NCBI RefSeq assembly: GCF_011758745.1
Contig: NZ_JAANOV010000001.1
Location: 5,394,001 to 5,458,000, forward strand
DNA: 64,000 nucleotides
Source of the DNA: Amycolatopsis granulosa
Lineage (GTDB): Bacteria > Actinomycetota > Actinomycetes > Mycobacteriales > Pseudonocardiaceae
Direction of reading: 5' to 3'
Made by a program: the position numbers and the translations under genes. This document shows positions 57,267 to 64,000 of this stretch, piece after piece; the first letter of the stretch is position 1; every line of letters begins with the position of its first letter. A model generated the notes under the pieces. The model did no database searches. It was not told the DNA's origin and saw only the letters and a list, made by a program, of their open reading frames with translations.

Positions 57267-58442
57267 CTAACCCACCGGACCCTCGACCAGGGTGGTGCTC
57301 GCGCTGTGCTGCTGACCCGCCTGGTCCAGCCAGGTGATGGTGACGTGGTCGCCCGGGTGCAGCGTGTCCATCACCGCGGTCAGATCCGTCGCCGACCCGA
57401 CCGCACGGCCGTTCAGCTGGGTGACGACGTCGCCGGCGACGAGCCCGGCGTCGTCGGCCGGGCCGCCGGAGACGACCTGCTGCACCAGCGCGCCCGGGCC
57501 GCCGGCGTCGCTCACCGACACCCCGAGGAACGCCGACGCTCCGATGTGGACGGTGTCGGACGGGTGGGCCGTCTCGATCTGCCGTGCCAGGGTCAGCGCG
57601 TCGTCGATCGGGATGGCGAACCCGCTCACCCCCTCGGGCGCGCGTCCGGCGCGGCCGAACTGGTATCCGGTCGAGGCGGCGGTGTTCATCCCGATCACCC
57701 GGCCCTGCGCATCGGCCAGCGCGCCACCCGAATCGCCCGACTGGATGTTCGCGTCCACCTGGATCAGCCCGGTCAGCTGTTCCGAGCTGCCCGACGACTC
57801 GTCCGTCGCGGTGATCGACTGGTTCAGCGCCGTCACCTTGCCGGGGGAGACGCTCGGTGCGCCGCCGTCGCCGCCGGCGTTGCCCAGCCCCACCACCGGG
57901 TCGCCGACCGCCACCGGCGAGGAATCACCGGTGGTGACCGTGCCCAGCCCGGAGGCGTCCTGCAGCTGCAGCACCGCCACGTCCCGCGTCCGGCTGTAGC
58001 CGAGCACCTCGGCCCGGTAGCTGCGGCCGGTGTCCACGTCGGTCGCCTTGATGCTCGTGGCCCCCGCCACCACGTGGTTGTTGGTCAGCACCTTGCCGTC
58101 GGCGCTGAGCACCATCCCCGTTCCCGCGGCCTGCTGCCCGGAGTAGCCGAGCGTGGAGTAGACGTCGACCAGCCCGGGCGCGACCTTGTCGGTGACCGCC
58201 TGCACGTCGAGTGTGCTGCTGCTGGTCTGGCGGTTGTGCAGGGTGCGGTCCAGCGGAGCGGAGGTGCCCCCGGTCGGCAGCGCGTCGCGCCCCAGGTCCC
58301 ACGCCACGAAACCCAGCGCGACCAGCACCACCAGGCCGAGCACGCTCAGCAGCGCCCGCGGTCCGCGCCGGCGCCGCCGGGGCGGCTGCGGCGGTGGTGG
58401 CGGCGGAGCCCAGGGATCGTGGTGCGGTGGGTAGTAGGTCAT
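57267..58442 (-). CDS. HtrA/DegP-like membrane serine protease with PDZ
   Basis: 391 residues. Pro-rich cytoplasmic start (residues 4-20), one membrane helix at 29-48, then a trypsin-like protease with His123 (T-N-N-H-V-V), Asp154 (T-R-D-V-A-V) and Ser238 (S-G-D-S-G-G). The C-terminal PDZ domain spans about 295-385 (D-A-G-L-V-A-G-D-V-V). It degrades misfolded envelope proteins outside the membrane. ATG 58442 has GAGGAG. Divergent from a stress-type operon. Confidence 0.92.
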   Translation of the reverse strand: MTYYPPHHDPWAPPPPPPQPPRRRRRGPRALLSVLGLVVLVALGFVAWDLGRDALPTGGTSAPLDRTLHNRQTSSSTLDVQAVTDKVAPGLVDVYSTLGYSGQQAAGTGMVLSADGKVLTNNHVVAGATSIKATDVDTGRSYRAEVLGYSRTRDVAVLQLQDASGLGTVTTGDSSPVAVGDPVVGLGNAGGDGGAPSVSPGKVTALNQSITATDESSGSSEQLTGLIQVDANIQSGDSGGALADAQGRVIGMNTAASTGYQFGRAGRAPEGVSGFAIPIDDALTLARQIETAHPSDTVHIGASAFLGVSVSDAGGPGALVQQVVSGGPADDAGLVAGDVVTQLNGRAVGSATDLTAVMDTLHPGDHVTITWLDQAGQQHSASTTLVEGPVG

Positions 58443-58528
58443 GGGTGCCTCTCCTCCGCCGTCCAGTGAACCCCTCCTCCCTGAGATTCGCCTGCGGCGC
58501 GACCGTGAAACACCTGAGAGGCCCGCGC

Positions 58529-58553
58529 GTTTGTGAAGTTGACCAAGGGGTAC
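58529..58553 (+). promoter_or_regulatory. Sigma-B/F-type stress promoter
   Basis: GTTT (58529-58532), 15 bases, GGGTAC (58548-58553), then 10 bases to ATG 58564. The best match in the window to the GTTT-N15-GGGTA class used by stress sigma factors. Confidence 0.7.
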
Positions 58554-58563
58554 ACCCGATCTG

Positions 58564-59001
58564 ATGCGAAAGGGGACGGCCTGTGCGGGCCTCGCGCTCG
58601 CGGTCACGCTCACCGCCTGTTCTGCCGGCTCGGCGTCGAGCTACACGGACAGCGCGGTCGTCTCCGCGCAGGAGGGACTGGCCGCGGTCGGTACCCTGCA
58701 CCGGATCGTCCAGGCCCACCAGCAGGGCCGCCTGTTCCCGACCTTCACCACCGCCGCGGTGGACGACGTGATGGCAACGGCCACCAAAGCACTGGACGAT
58801 GTGGACAATCAGCAACCGTCCGCGCCCGGCACCCGGCAGGTCTACGACGAGTTGCACCCCCGCCTGCAGGACGCGGTGGCGCGGGCCACCGAAGCGCAGG
58901 AGGCCCTCCAGGCGGGTGATGCCGGCCGGATCGCCGCGGCCGACACCCAGCTGGTGCGGGTGACCGGCGAGCTGACCGCCTTCGTGAAGAGCCACCGATG
59001 A
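58564..59001 (+). CDS. Predicted lipoprotein, 145 aa
   Basis: 145 residues. Signal peptide 1-18 and lipobox L-T-A-C with Cys19. The mature part is helical and Ala/Gln/Thr-rich (A-V-D-D-V-M-A-T-A-T-K-A-L, then A-T-E-A-Q-E-A-L-Q), likely an extracytoplasmic four-helix domain. ATGA overlap with the NRAMP gene downstream, so it may assist metal uptake or sense the envelope. No recognised family. Confidence 0.8.
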   Translation: MRKGTACAGLALAVTLTACSAGSASSYTDSAVVSAQEGLAAVGTLHRIVQAHQQGRLFPTFTTAAVDDVMATATKALDDVDNQQPSAPGTRQVYDELHPRLQDAVARATEAQEALQAGDAGRIAAADTQLVRVTGELTAFVKSHR

Positions 59002-60230
59002 AGAAGGTGCTCGCCGTCACCCTGGGCATCCTCACCGCGATCGGCGGGTTCGTCGACATCGGCGACCTCGTCGCCAACGCCCAGTCCGGCGCCCGGTTCG
59101 GCATGCGGCAGGCCTGGGTCGTCGTCATCGGCGTGGTGGGTATCTGCGTGTTCGCCGAGATGTCCGGCCGGGTCGCCGCGGTCAGCCAGCGCCCGGTGTT
59201 CGACCTGGTGCGCGAGCGGCTCGGCCCGCGCACCGCGATGGCCAACCTCATCGGGTCCTACCTGGTCACCCTGCTGACCCTGACCGCCGAGGTCGGCGGT
59301 GTCGCGCTCACCATCCAGCTCGTCACCGGGCTGCCGCACCTGCTGTGGGTGCCGCTGGCCGCCATCGCCGTGTGGCTGGTGCTGTGGCGGGTGAAGTTCC
59401 AGCTGATGGAGCAGGTGTTCGGCGCGCTCGGGCTGGCGCTCGTGGTGTTCGTCGTCGCGCTGGTCGCGCTCGACCCGCCGTGGGGCGGCTTCGCGCACCA
59501 GGTCACGCACATCGGCCCGCCGCAGGGCGAGAACTGGGCCACGTGGGGCTACCTGGCGGTGTCGCTGTTCGCCTCGGCCCTGACGCCGTACGAGGTGTTC
59601 TTCTTCTCCTCCGGCGGCGTCGAGGAGAAGTGGACGGCGCGGGACCTGATGACCGAGCGCAGCAACACCTTGGTCGGGTTCCCGCTGGGCGGGGTGCTCG
59701 GCCTGGCGATCATGGGTTGTGCCGCCACCGTGTTCGAACCGGCCGGGATCCAGGTCAACCAGCTCAGCCAGACGGCGCTGCCGGTGGCGGTCGCGCTGGG
59801 CAAGTTCGGCCTGGCCGTGGTCATGCTCGGGTTCTTCGCCGCCACCTTCGGCGCCGCGCTGGAGACCGGTCTGTCCACCGGGTACACGATCGCGCAGTAC
59901 TTCGGGTGGCAGTGGGGCAAGATGGTCCGCCCGCGCGAGGCGGCCCGCTTCCACACGGTGATCCTGGTCAGCATCCTGCTCGGCACCGCCGTGCTGCTGA
60001 CCACCGTCGATCCGGTGCAGATCACCGAGCTGTCGCTGTTGTTCAGCGCGGTGGTGCTGCCGCTGACCTACCTGCCGATCCTGGTCGTCGCCAACGACCG
60101 GGACTACCTCGGCGAGAACGCCAACGGGCGGGTGCAGAACTTCCTCGGCGTCGCCTTCCTGGTGATCATCCTGGTCGCCGCGATCGCCGCGGTCCCGCTC
60201 ATGATCGTCACGGGGATGGGGCAATCATGA
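58998..60230 (+). CDS. NRAMP-family metal transporter, variant motifs
   Basis: 410 residues, about eleven helices. The first-helix metal motif D-P-G-N is D-I-G-D here (D20 and D23). The sixth-helix M-P-H-N motif appears as T-P-Y-E (residues 196-199) after A-S-A-L. Loss of the metal-binding Met usually removes preference for Mn/Fe; NRMT Mg transporters also lack it, and this protein also replaces Asn with acidic residues. Substrate may be Mg or another ion; inference. Coupled on both sides by ATGA overlaps. Confidence 0.85.
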   Translation: MKKVLAVTLGILTAIGGFVDIGDLVANAQSGARFGMRQAWVVVIGVVGICVFAEMSGRVAAVSQRPVFDLVRERLGPRTAMANLIGSYLVTLLTLTAEVGGVALTIQLVTGLPHLLWVPLAAIAVWLVLWRVKFQLMEQVFGALGLALVVFVVALVALDPPWGGFAHQVTHIGPPQGENWATWGYLAVSLFASALTPYEVFFFSSGGVEEKWTARDLMTERSNTLVGFPLGGVLGLAIMGCAATVFEPAGIQVNQLSQTALPVAVALGKFGLAVVMLGFFAATFGAALETGLSTGYTIAQYFGWQWGKMVRPREAARFHTVILVSILLGTAVLLTTVDPVQITELSLLFSAVVLPLTYLPILVVANDRDYLGENANGRVQNFLGVAFLVIILVAAIAAVPLMIVTGMGQS

Positions 60231-60622
60231 TCCTCGGCCGGCCGGACCCGCTGCGGGTCGAGTTCCACCTCCTGGACCGCCAGATCGTCGACGTCGACGG
60301 GCATCCGGTGGGCAAGGTCGACGACGTCGAGCTGACCCGCGACGACGACGGCACCTACCGGGTGACCGCGCTGCTGACCGGCCAGTACGTGCTGGGCCGG
60401 CGGGTCGGCGGACTGCTCGGCAGGGTGCTGTGCTGGCTGGGCGCCCGGCTCGGCGGCGGGCGGGTCGAGCCGGTGCGGATCGGCTTCGAGCACGTGCAGC
60501 GGGTGAGCAGCGACGTGACCCTGTCGCTGCGCGCGGAGGTGCTGGCCGAGCAGCCGTTGGAACGCTGGTTGCGCGACAAGTTCATCGCGCGGATCCCGGG
60601 GTCCGGTCATGCCGGCGGATGA
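60227..60622 (+). CDS. PRC-barrel-domain protein, 131 aa
   Basis: 131 residues. The N-terminal part (V-E-F-H-L-L-D-R-Q-I-V-D-V-D-G-H-P-V-G-K-V near 10-30) is PRC-barrel-like. The middle is Gly/Leu-rich (near 50-75) and may lie against the membrane. Starts in the NRAMP stop (ATGA). PRC barrels in transport operons often act as cytoplasmic accessory or sensor units. Function here is unproven. Confidence 0.8.
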   Translation: MILGRPDPLRVEFHLLDRQIVDVDGHPVGKVDDVELTRDDDGTYRVTALLTGQYVLGRRVGGLLGRVLCWLGARLGGGRVEPVRIGFEHVQRVSSDVTLSLRAEVLAEQPLERWLRDKFIARIPGSGHAGG

Positions 60623-60890
60623 GGTCGTGCGGGCCGGCCAGCTGCTCGGCCGCCGGGTCTACGACGCGCGGGGGCGGAAGCTGGGGAAGGTGACGGACCT
60701 GATCACCCGCCCCGACGCGGACGGGCAGGAACGGACCGTCGCGGTGCTGGTCAGCCACGGCCGGCGCGGGCGGCTGCTCGGGTACGAGCGGAGCAGCCAG
60801 CGCGGGCCGTGGCTGCTGGCGTGGCTGGCGAAGGTCGTGCACCGGGGGACGCGGGAAATACCGTGGTCCGAGGTGCACTGGTCGCCGTGA
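60609..60890 (+). CDS. PRC-barrel-domain protein, 93 aa
   Basis: 93 residues. R-R-V-Y-D-A-R-G-R-K-L-G-K-V-T-D-L near 14-31 is the PRC core. The C-terminus has W-L-L-A-W-L-A-K-V-V and an E-I-P-W-S-E-V ending. Overlaps the preceding gene by 14 bases. Last gene of the operon; ends 11 bases from the convergent repeat protein. A second, shorter PRC domain suggests a hetero-oligomer with its neighbour. Confidence 0.78.
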   Translation: MPADEVVRAGQLLGRRVYDARGRKLGKVTDLITRPDADGQERTVAVLVSHGRRGRLLGYERSSQRGPWLLAWLAKVVHRGTREIPWSEVHWSP

Positions 60891-60901: not shown

Positions 60902-61681
60902 TCAGCCGAGCCGGACGTCGGAGCGGGTGCTGCCGCGCCCGACCCGGACCGCCTGCCGAACCGGTGCGTGGCTGGTGGCGACCACCGTGTAGGTGCCCGG
61001 TTCGAGGTCGTGGAAGGCGTAGCGGCCGTCGTCCTCCGCATGCGCCCTGCGGACCACGGTGCCCGCGTCGTCCAGCAGGCTCACCGTGATCCGCGGCCAC
61101 GGCCGCGGCAGATCGCGCACGGTGACCGCACCCCGGACGGTCGCCGCGTCGGACAGCTCGACGTCCTGCCGCACCGTCGCATCGCTCACGGTGACCGCCA
61201 CCGCGGCCGGCCGGTAGGCGGGTGCGTTGACGGCGAGCGTGTAACCCCCGGCCGGCAGCGCGCCGAAGGAGTATTCACCGCCCTGCCCGGACCGGGACGA
61301 GCCGACGACCTCGCCGCGGAAGTCGGCCAGCGTCACCGTCGCCCCCATGACCGGGACCCCGGTCGAGGCCGACCGGACCACGCCACCGAGCCCGGTCGCG
61401 TCCTCCAGCACCAGGTCGACGCCGGCGGGGGAGCCGCCGACCGTCACCGTCGCGGCCGCCGGCCGGTACGCCGGGGCCGAGGCGATCACCACGTACCGGC
61501 CGCGGCCCGGTGCGGGCAGCCGGTAGCCGCCGTCGCCACCGGTGGTGCCCCGCGCGATCTGCTGCCCACCGGAGTCCACCAGGGTGACGGCTGCGCCGGT
61601 CACCGGATCCTGCGTGGCCGAGCGCACCCAGCCGGTCACCTCGGCGCCGCGGCCCCGCGGCGGGATCGGCGTGCCGGTCAT
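60902..61681 (-). CDS. Three-repeat carboxypeptidase-regulatory-like (CnaB-type) protein
   Basis: 259 residues built of three repeats of about 80. Each ends Y-x-x-x-A-x-A-P-x-Y-R-P-A (near 62, 143) or a variant, preceded by G-x-x-x-P-V-x-G-A-x-V-T-L. No signal peptide or membrane segment, so it is predicted cytoplasmic, unusual for the family. ATG 61681 overlaps the upstream MFS stop by ATGA. The related domains in that MFS suggest it extends or binds the transporter tail. Confidence 0.85.
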   Translation of the reverse strand: MTGTPIPPRGRGAEVTGWVRSATQDPVTGAAVTLVDSGGQQIARGTTGGDGGYRLPAPGRGRYVVIASAPAYRPAAATVTVGGSPAGVDLVLEDATGLGGVVRSASTGVPVMGATVTLADFRGEVVGSSRSGQGGEYSFGALPAGGYTLAVNAPAYRPAAVAVTVSDATVRQDVELSDAATVRGAVTVRDLPRPWPRITVSLLDDAGTVVRRAHAEDDGRYAFHDLEPGTYTVVATSHAPVRQAVRVGRGSTRSDVRLG

Positions 61682-64000
61682 GACCGCGCCTGCTCGGGCC
61701 GTCCGGCGTGCAGGGCGTGCAGGGCGTGCAGGGCGTGCAGGTCGATGTCGACGGTCGCCGACTCGCCACCGGTGAGGTCCACCTGCCGCACCGCCGGTTC
61801 GAACAGGCTGGTCACCACGCTGTAGTCGCCGGGCGGGAGGCCGGTCACCTCGTAGCCGCCCAGCTCATCGCTCACCGCGGTCGCGGCGAGCTCGCCCGCG
61901 GCCGTGCTGACCTCGACCCGCGCGCCGGGAACCGGACGGCCGTCCGGGCCGGTGACCGTGCCGTGCAGCGTGCCGGCGGCCTGGACGAGCAGATCGGCCA
62001 CGGCGGGCTCGGTGCCGGACACCACGACGGTGGCGGCCGCCGGCTGGTGCCCGTCCAGGTGCGCGGTCACCGTGACCTCCCCGGTCGGCAGGCCGGTGAG
62101 CTGGAACGTGCCGTCGGCGAGGGTGAGCGTCCGGCCGAGCACCTCCCCGTCACCGCCGGTGGCCACCACGGCGGTGTCCCCGGCGCCGGCGCCGCCGGGG
62201 GAGAGCCGCACGATGCCGGTGACCGTGCCGCCACCGGCGACCACGAAGTCACGCACCGCGCCCGACCCGGTCACGGTCACGGCGGCCGCCTCCGGCCGGA
62301 ACCCGGGTGCGGTCACGATCAGGGTGTAGGTGCCCGGCCGCAGCCCGGACACCGCGTAGCCGCCGTCGGCGCCGGCCCGGGTGCGTCCCGCCTGCCTGCC
62401 GTCCGGGCCCGTCACCGTCACCACCCCGCCGCCCGGCGCGCTGCCGCCGGCGGTGCGCAGGCGGCCGGTGATCCGGCCCGGCCCGGCCGCCCCGGTTTCG
62501 TGGCCGGTCACGTCGACGACCTCCCCCGCGGCGGCGGCCAGCTCGGACCCGGCGGTCTCGTGCGGCTGCCCCGGCGCGGCCTTCCGTGACCGCCCGGTGA
62601 ACCAGGACGCGAGCGCGGCCACCACCGACGCGATGATCGCGAACCAGAACGCCGCGGTCAGGCCGTCGGAGAACGGGCCGGAGATCAGCTGCGGGAAGAA
62701 GCTGCGCCCGGTGAGGTATGCGGCCTGGTCGGGCGGCAGGGTGGGCAGCACACCGCCGAGGAGCTGTTCGATCGGGTTGTAGCCGAGGAAGGCGGCGAAC
62801 AGCACGCCGACCGGCGGCAGCACCGCGATCTGGTTCGCGGCCGCGGTGGGCACGCCGTGCGCGGTCAGGCCCTGCGCCATCGCCGAGGGCAGGTGGTCGG
62901 CGAGCCCGGCGATCATCAGGCTGAAGAAGAAGCCGATCGACAGCACCATCGCCGAGTTCTGGAACGTGGCGGTCATGCCGGCGCCGGCGCCGCGCGCGTT
63001 GTTCGGCAGGCTGTTCATCACCTCGGCCCGGTTGGGTGAGGTGAACAGGCCCATGCCGAGCCCGTTGAGCAGCAGGATCGCGGCGAAACCCCAGTAGTTG
63101 AAGTTCACCGGCAGGACCTCGAGCAGGATGAAGCTGACCGCCGTGAGGAGCATGCCGCCGGTGGACAGCAGCCGCCCGCCGATGCGGTCGGAGACGATGC
63201 CGGACACCGGCGCGGCGATCAGGAAGCCGATCGTCAGCGGCAGCATGTAGATGCCCGCCCACAACGGGGTCTGCTCGAAGCTGTACCCGTGCTGCGGCAG
63301 CCAGATGCCCTGCAGCCAGATGATCAGCACGAACTGCAGGCCACCGCGGCCGAGCGAGGCGAGCAGGTTCGCCAGGTTGCCGAAGGTGAACGCGCGGATC
63401 TTGAACAGCCCCAGGTTGAACAGCGGGTTCGCGACCCGCGTCTCGATGAGGCAGAAGATCACCAGCACCACGACGCCGCCGATGAGGCAGGACAGCACGA
63501 ACGGGCTCGTCCAGCCCATGGTGTGCCCGCCGTAGGGCTGGATGCCGTAGGTGATGCCGACGAGCACGGCGATGAGGCCGACCGCGAAGGTCAGGTTCCC
63601 CCACCAGTCCATCCGGGCGCGGTGCCGCTCGCTGGTGTCCTTCAGCTTCAGGTAGGCCCAGATGGTGCCGAACACGCCGAACGGCACGGACACGAGGAAG
63701 ACCAGCCGCCACTCGACCGGGCCGAGCAGCCCGCCGATCACCAGGCCGAGGAACGAGCCCGCGATGGCGGCGACGCCGTTGATGCCCAGCGCCATGCCGC
63801 GCTGGTGCTTGGGGAAGGCGTCGGTGAGGATCGCGCTGGAGTTCGCCATCAGGAACGCGCCCCCGATGCCCTGCACGATCCGCCAGGCGATCATCCAGAT
63901 CGCCGCGGCGCCCCCGCTCATCCAGGTGACCGCCAGGAAGATCGACGACACCGCGAACACGGCGAAGCCCAGGTTGTACATCCGGACCCGGCCGTACATG
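61678..64000 (-). CDS. DHA2-type MFS transporter fused to CnaB-like repeats (5' end outside window)
   Basis: 774 visible residues; the start is beyond 64000, since the family's first helix and G-D-x-Y-G-R loop are incomplete (visible part begins with its M-Y-G-R-V-R). Residues to about 465 hold the remaining helices of a 14-helix drug-efflux-type transporter with R-I-V-Q-G-I-G-G-A near 38. The C-terminal 290 residues form three repeats of the regulatory-like fold, ending in a four-fold L-H-A repeat. A 14-helix protein should place this tail in the cytoplasm. ATGA-coupled to the next gene. Confidence 0.88.
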   Translation of the reverse strand, partial: MYGRVRMYNLGFAVFAVSSIFLAVTWMSGGAAAIWMIAWRIVQGIGGAFLMANSSAILTDAFPKHQRGMALGINGVAAIAGSFLGLVIGGLLGPVEWRLVFLVSVPFGVFGTIWAYLKLKDTSERHRARMDWWGNLTFAVGLIAVLVGITYGIQPYGGHTMGWTSPFVLSCLIGGVVVLVIFCLIETRVANPLFNLGLFKIRAFTFGNLANLLASLGRGGLQFVLIIWLQGIWLPQHGYSFEQTPLWAGIYMLPLTIGFLIAAPVSGIVSDRIGGRLLSTGGMLLTAVSFILLEVLPVNFNYWGFAAILLLNGLGMGLFTSPNRAEVMNSLPNNARGAGAGMTATFQNSAMVLSIGFFFSLMIAGLADHLPSAMAQGLTAHGVPTAAANQIAVLPPVGVLFAAFLGYNPIEQLLGGVLPTLPPDQAAYLTGRSFFPQLISGPFSDGLTAAFWFAIIASVVAALASWFTGRSRKAAPGQPHETAGSELAAAAGEVVDVTGHETGAAGPGRITGRLRTAGGSAPGGGVVTVTGPDGRQAGRTRAGADGGYAVSGLRPGTYTLIVTAPGFRPEAAAVTVTGSGAVRDFVVAGGGTVTGIVRLSPGGAGAGDTAVVATGGDGEVLGRTLTLADGTFQLTGLPTGEVTVTAHLDGHQPAAATVVVSGTEPAVADLLVQAAGTLHGTVTGPDGRPVPGARVEVSTAAGELAATAVSDELGGYEVTGLPPGDYSVVTSLFEPAVRQVDLTGGESATVDIDLHALHALHALHAGRPEQARS
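61706..61741. repeat. Tandem 9-base repeat, four copies
   Basis: GCGTGCAGG repeated exactly four times inside the MFS gene, encoding L-H-A four times near its C-terminus. In-frame unit, so copy number could vary without frameshift. Confidence 0.9.

Follow-up and report, generated by a model that had tools for sequence, protein, structure and literature searches.

NRAMP carriers serve as a model of ion choice within a single fold. Canonical members, among them MntH, DraNramp and ScaDMT, carry the signature DxxN in TM1 and A/CxxM in TM6. In MgtE, Mg is sensed by the MgtE_N-CBS part. EleNRMT moves Mg2+ without proton coupling; the Met, Asn and proton residues are lost, Asp55 and Glu133 stay, and the NRMT signature is DxxG-TxxA/T (PMC8806188). 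NrmT genes commonly have an MgtE-like partner, which Shin et al. (2014) saw for most members, and the A. capsulatum NrmT, together with its MgtE-like partner, gave better rescue for Mn than for Mg (PMC4072509). In the plant NRAT aluminium transporters, which have the signature DPSN in TM1 and AxxT in TM6, Thr241 and Tyr243 of SiNRAT (PDB 8ont) replace Met and His in TM6, and an acidic residue is gained at the ion site (PMC10115441). Nramp-related groups besides the NRMT-like and MntG groups are called entirely uncharacterised in the accessible part of the 2026 BfraNramp preprint, and that part does not discuss their operon partners or promoters (PMC12873925). As to stress promoters, the SigF consensus of M. 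smegmatis is GTTT-N(14-19)-GGGTA, several of its sites lying 8-11 bases before the start codon (PMC4694148), and the SigB-type promoters of S. coelicolor resemble it (PMC8346170).

The genome of the soil actinobacterium Amycolatopsis granulosa is one contig of 5.62 Mb, of which we analysed a 64-kb stretch (5,394,001-5,458,000), here called the window. A four-gene cassette lies at 58564-60890 on the plus strand of the window. All four genes overlap, as the original prediction had it. The overlaps are 4 bases (lipoprotein/NRAMP), 4 bases (NRAMP/PRC-A) and 14 bases (PRC-A/PRC-B), and the first gene encodes a lipoprotein. The features are as follows.

58529-58553, plus strand: SigB/SigF-class promoter with a -35 element GTTT at 58529-58532, a 15-base spacer and a -10 element GGGTAC at 58548-58553, assigned by motif and orthologue conservation
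58560-58564, plus strand: predicted transcription start, placed by the distance from the -10 element and by the SigB-type promoters listed in PMC8346170
58564-59001, plus strand: lipoprotein gene, 145 aa, lipobox LTAC (Cys19), predicted four-helix mature part, no known family
58998-60230, plus strand: transporter of the NRAMP superfamily (PF01566, LeuT fold) with an acidic site, 410 aa
59055-59066, plus strand: TM1 site D20-I-G-D23 (DPGN in canonical NRAMPs, DAGG in NRMTs)
59583-59594, plus strand: TM6 site T196-P-Y-E199 (MPH in canonical NRAMPs, APWM in NRMTs)
59862-59864, plus strand: clade-specific Glu289 in TM8 (106 of 106 sequences; V/I/A in relatives)
60227-60622, plus strand: PRC-A, 131 aa, PRC-barrel-like of the LLDRQIVD type, no signal peptide
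60609-60890, plus strand: PRC-B, 93 aa, PRC-barrel PF05239, no signal peptide

The transporter is a member of the NRAMP superfamily, scoring 177.1 bits against Pfam PF01566 (cut-off 29.8). Its AF2 model (pLDDT 88.9) has the LeuT fold seen in NRAMP structures, with EleNRMT as the closest fold match (TM 0.87) and DraNramp at TM 0.80. EleNRMT (PDB 7qia), the nearest characterised relative, also has the nearest PDB sequence (E 4e-31), and identity to NRMTs is 26-30%. The NRMTs, among them EleNRMT and CabNRMT, and this transporter have both lost the soft Met, the Asn and the proton-path residues and both keep the TM1 Asp and the TM3 Glu, but the DxxG/APWM site of the NRMTs is here DxxD/TPYE with Glu289 in addition, which departs from the NRMT signature. 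Canonical NRAMPs share with it the superfamily, the fold, the TM1 Asp and the TM3 Glu at an identity of about 22-26%, whereas their DPGN and MPH ligands and their proton path are missing and DIGD/TPYE does not conform to their signature. Judged by signature, the transporter is thus neither a canonical NRAMP nor an NRMT. D20-I-G-D23 and T196-P-Y-E199 align with DPGN and MPH, the motifs found both in DraNramp and in the MntH encoded by this genome, so that the variant motifs of the original prediction stand.

This variant site is conserved in the clade. DIGD/TPYE was found in 96 of 106 distinct clade sequences, and further sampling gave the same picture. Asp20, Glu98 (TM3) and Glu289 are each invariant (106/106), and the clade-specific acids Asp23, Glu199 and Glu344 (TM9) are present in 102, 102 and 101 of the 106 sequences. 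The variants are SPYE (3 sequences), DIGN/VPYQ (3) and the single cases DAGD/TPYA, DMGD, DVGD and DMGS. The DIGN/VPYQ branch has other residues in place of Asp23, Glu199 and Glu344 and retains Glu289; the extra acids are therefore not kept across the whole clade. The clade offers a natural and conserved remodelling of the ion site, with Asn changed to Asp, Met to Thr and Glu gained in TM6 and TM8, and the DIGN/VPYQ paralogue branch, in which two acids have become amides, provides a ready-made selectivity comparison. Three genomes of the same genus have a diverged cassette with this site (loci L021-L023), and genome G016 has a typical copy and a second copy (G016:C6:33030) of 54% identity.

The loss of Met and Asn and the gain of Asp23, Glu199 and Glu289 suggest a preference for a hard ion, either highly charged or partly hydrated, over Mn or Fe. 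The claim that the ion is unlikely to be the usual Mn/Fe is plausible. An importer of Mn2+ or Fe2+ with a rearranged site, supplying Mn to stress enzymes, would agree with membership of PF01566 and with the movement of Mn2+ by EleNRMT and some NrmT proteins (PMC8806188; PMC4072509). It is nevertheless unlikely, because the Met ligand is absent in 106/106 sequences, Asn occurs at position 23 in only 3/106, and the genome also encodes a canonical MntH with DPGN and MPH (G000:C1:1212660-1213790), by which ordinary Mn uptake is already covered.

The added carboxylates and the SiNRAT-like Thr and Tyr of TM6 speak for a hard cation with high charge density. The substrate could be a trivalent or otherwise very hard ion (Al3+, Fe3+, Ga3+ or a lanthanide), as proposed for plant NRATs, since T196 and Y198 match Thr241 and Tyr243 of SiNRAT, NRATs too gain an acidic residue (PMC10115441), and Asp23, Glu199 and Glu289 are additional acids in this clade. 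The TM1 motif here is, however, DIGD and not the DPSN of the NRAT motif DPSN-AxxT, and NRATs belong to a eukaryotic branch that arose from canonical NRAMPs and has none of the PRC or lipoprotein partners found here, while this clade sits with the NRMT side. Actinobacteria normally take up Fe3+ by siderophores, and we know of no bacterial precedent for a trivalent-ion NRAMP relative. Such a substrate is therefore improbable.

Where DraNramp has the proton-path residues D131 and H232, the transporter has L95 and Y198 in the alignment, and Asp20 and Glu98 remain, which is the pattern reported for the uncoupled EleNRMT (PMC8806188). The clade-specific acids in TM8 and TM9 have also to be considered in terms of an exporter or proton-coupled exchanger, in which Glu289 and Glu344 would form a new proton path and excess cation would be shed under stress. 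A Na/Ca exchanger gene of the same genome has a promoter of the same class at leaderless distance, which would fit this explanation. Every characterised NRAMP relative imports, however (general knowledge; PMC8806188), and Glu344 is not universal (101/106), so export or exchange is very unlikely.

The 106 distinct sequences represent a deep actinobacterial clade that is monophyletic in a maximum-likelihood tree (support 100) and lies outside the NRMT clade. It stands apart from NRMT (support 83), the DAGA/APWQ group and canonical MntH, and groups with the NRMT side (support 85) rather than with canonical MntH, a grouping that leans on long branches. Orthologues with at least about 52% identity form a clear group; beyond it, identity of full-length NRAMPs drops to near 30%. 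Of 399 genomes sampled from the order, 74 have an orthologue of this group, and a contig-level scan gave 484 encoding stretches, the best 80 of which are all actinobacterial. The cassette is conserved in many actinobacteria yet, as far as we found, uncharacterised in the literature, and the clade may be one of the uncharacterised Nramp-related groups mentioned in the BfraNramp preprint (PMC12873925). The branch leading to the clade is about 2 changes per site long. Together with the LeuT/APC fold, common to other members of the APC superfamily, and the possibility that PRC proteins relay a signal, this depth could mean a non-metal substrate (an organic cation, polyamine or amino acid) or a transceptor that signals through the PRC proteins. 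Asp20 and Glu98, metal-site residues common to NRMTs and canonical NRAMPs, are nonetheless invariant, and the 26-30% identity to NRMT also argues against such a role, which we regard as quite unlikely. In genome G013 (locus L024, same genus) the NRAMP reading frame is interrupted and the stretch ahead of the -10 element is unlike that of all relatives, and in genome G039 (locus L027, same family) only gene fragments match; judging from these sequences, some lineages seem to be losing the cassette by decay.

The operon is preceded by the GTTT-N15-GGGTAC element, which ends 10 bases before the ATG at 58564 (11 bases from the end of GGGTA). It is the only exact GTTTN14-16GGGTA match in the 64-kb window, where 0.06 are expected, in line with the original prediction of a stress-type promoter at this distance. 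Genome-wide there are 52 such sites compared with 5 for a reversed-pattern control, and two SigB/F/G-type sigma genes score above the NCBIfam cut-off. With the -10 box at this distance from the start codon, the operon message should be leaderless or nearly so, with a predicted leader of 0-4 bases. The same arrangement occurs in orthologues. The exact motif stands directly upstream of the partner gene of the NRAMP in 23 of 106 distinct loci (0 for the reversed motif), and in 39 of 106 when one mismatch is allowed (4 for the reversed control). With a looser -10 element, the distance to the start codon peaks at 10-11 bases and 26 of 96 loci fall within 8-12; peaks at larger distances are at least partly due to further start codons within the same loci. 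A SigB/F-type promoter at 9-11 bases is thus found in about a quarter of the loci and in several families. The loci with a promoter within 8-12 bases include Amycolatopsis, Lentzea, Labedaea, Actinokineospora, Dactylosporangium, Micromonospora and L037, the last from a genome outside the class of the window. About three quarters of the orthologous loci scanned have no recognisable motif, and stress control of the cassette is therefore not universal.

Sequence and near-start placement of the site agree with SigF/SigB regulon promoters of actinobacteria (PMC4694148). Our literature search found no published SigF or SigB regulon that lists this operon. Other sites in the genome precede genes for the Na/Ca exchanger, which begins 11 bases past the -10 element of its own site, an HATPase_c_2 (RsbW-like) protein, a Clp-type ATPase and a PRC-DUF2382 protein. 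High GC content yields long spurious ORFs and consensus scans are weak by themselves, so that the promoter match, the overlaps and the gene order might be accidents of a GC-rich genome. This is extremely improbable: promoter distance, overlaps, partners and fusions are conserved across many families, and these conservation data, with 52 against 5 promoter sites genome-wide, already contradict chance. SpoIIE/STAS stress regulators occur near the cassette in 8 of 80 loci, 3 of them in Kribbella, a count made without a control and given no weight. Behind each of the two sigma genes (G000:C1:1126678-1127349 and 3002799-3003470), at no more than about 35 bases, lies a GTTT-N-GGGTA site (1127372 and 3003501), and the Clp-type ATPase gene lies behind the site at 1127372, after the first sigma gene. 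The divergent neighbour of the operon is a gene for an HtrA-like trypsin/PDZ protease (57267-58442, minus strand). Between the two, the element GTGAAAC[A/C]CCTGAGA (58505-58519) is kept in close Amycolatopsis orthologues (loci L001-L009). It reads TCTCAGG on the opposite strand, and a second TCTCAG lies closer to the protease gene (58481-58486); the element may therefore be a regulator site for the protease.

The two downstream proteins had been described as PRC-barrel proteins and, with the lipoprotein, as dedicated partners. The family assignment held for PRC-B, which scores 28.1 bits against Pfam PRC (PF05239; cut-off 21.2), whereas PRC-A has no Pfam PRC match and is linked to PRC-B by single-sequence tblastn across orthologues (36-44% identity, E 1e-2 to 1e-5) and by profile. 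Iterated PRC profiles merged both types, so single E-values were not used to tell PRC-A from PRC-B. No convincing sequence relatives of either were found in the PDB. Dedication is well supported by the conservation of the cassette and by PRC-PRC fusion: of 111 loci, 108 have exactly two PRC domains downstream of the NRAMP gene, split between two genes in 78 loci and fused into a single gene in 30. The exceptions are a locus at the end of its contig and a Lentzea genome that was counted twice. The PRC-pair profiles also match proteins encoded next to genes of the NRMT side: tandem PRC proteins with no further domain in loci L046, L053, L054 and L056, and PRC proteins joined to MgtE_N, usually with CBS, in L026, L028, L031, L055 and L058, the last being the NRMT closest to EleNRMT in the tree sample. 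Pfam domains were checked in L026, L028, L046, L055 and L056, and the other NRMT neighbours were judged by sequence. The PRC pair therefore looks like the tandem-PRC partner module of the NRMT branch minus MgtE_N and CBS; the lipoprotein is an addition of this clade. Our literature search found no paper that names PRC domains with NRAMP or MgtE. NRAMP relatives may work as complexes, with paired PRC domains beside the carrier here and also beside NRMT genes. The only MgtE_N protein of the A. granulosa genome, of the PRC-MgtE_N-CBS-like type (G000:C1:2392188-2393018), lies far from any NRAMP gene and might in principle act on the carrier in trans. In locus L055, a cyclic di-GMP-II riboswitch (L055:2908-2973) lies about 220 bases after an NRMT-type gene with a PRC-MgtE_N-CBS neighbour.

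The protein upstream of the transporter has a signal peptide and the lipobox LTAC with Cys19. A lipoprotein-type gene precedes the NRAMP gene in 100 of 111 loci (106 distinct), with a 4-base overlap in 88. In a simple scan, 31 of the 100 upstream homologues have no lipobox, and several start with an N-terminal hydrophobic helix instead. The conserved trait thus seems to be a membrane-anchored four-helix bundle on the outer face, and not lipidation. The AF2 model is a four-helix bundle (pLDDT 89.5, core 91-99); its structural relatives were generic four-helix bundles only (best Foldseek E 0.1), and no consistent Pfam family was found. Partners on both membrane faces, as originally proposed, are plausible from the lipobox or N-terminal anchor on one side and the PRC proteins without signal peptide on the other.

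The explanation that we favour, with confidence somewhat short of even, is that the cassette encodes a general-stress, proton-independent importer of a hard cation, Mg2+ in the first place, with the PRC pair inside as a regulatory module and the four-helix partner outside. A SigB/F-family sigma factor released under stress would transcribe the operon. The carrier would then admit a hard cation, probably a divalent one, which would follow its electrochemical gradient into the cell uncoupled from protons, as in EleNRMT. The PRC pair might bind the inner face of the carrier and gate or stabilise it, a binding that we infer from gene order alone, and the lipoprotein might steady or screen the outer face. 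Ion, transport direction and partner roles are all read from sequence. Mg2+ is the first candidate and the most economical guess, and Ca2+ or a trivalent ion may be alternative substrates. Against Mg2+ stand the better rescue of Mn than of Mg by the A. capsulatum NrmT (PMC4072509) and the result that neither an M-box nor any other Mg riboswitch was found in the cassette loci tested. The unlikeness of DxxD to the NRMT signature, the missing promoter in about three quarters of the loci, the DIGN/VPYQ branch and the long branches on the NRMT side also count against the favoured explanation. If it is right, the promoter link would put a hard-cation importer into the actinobacterial stress response. 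A bolder and rather doubtful proposal is that the clade makes up a third class, by function, of prokaryotic NRAMP relatives. Its members would be transporters of several subunits, induced by stress, with an acidic core that selects an ion new to NRAMPs (Ca2+ or a trivalent ion, for instance) and with the PRC pair as gate.

Downstream of the cassette, on the minus strand, an MFS transporter fused to three CarboxypepD_reg (carboxypeptidase regulatory-like) repeats is encoded at 61678-63999 and runs past the window edge. It is followed by a separate gene with three more CarboxypepD_reg repeats (60902-61681, minus strand). The fusion is an unusual architecture for a membrane transporter.
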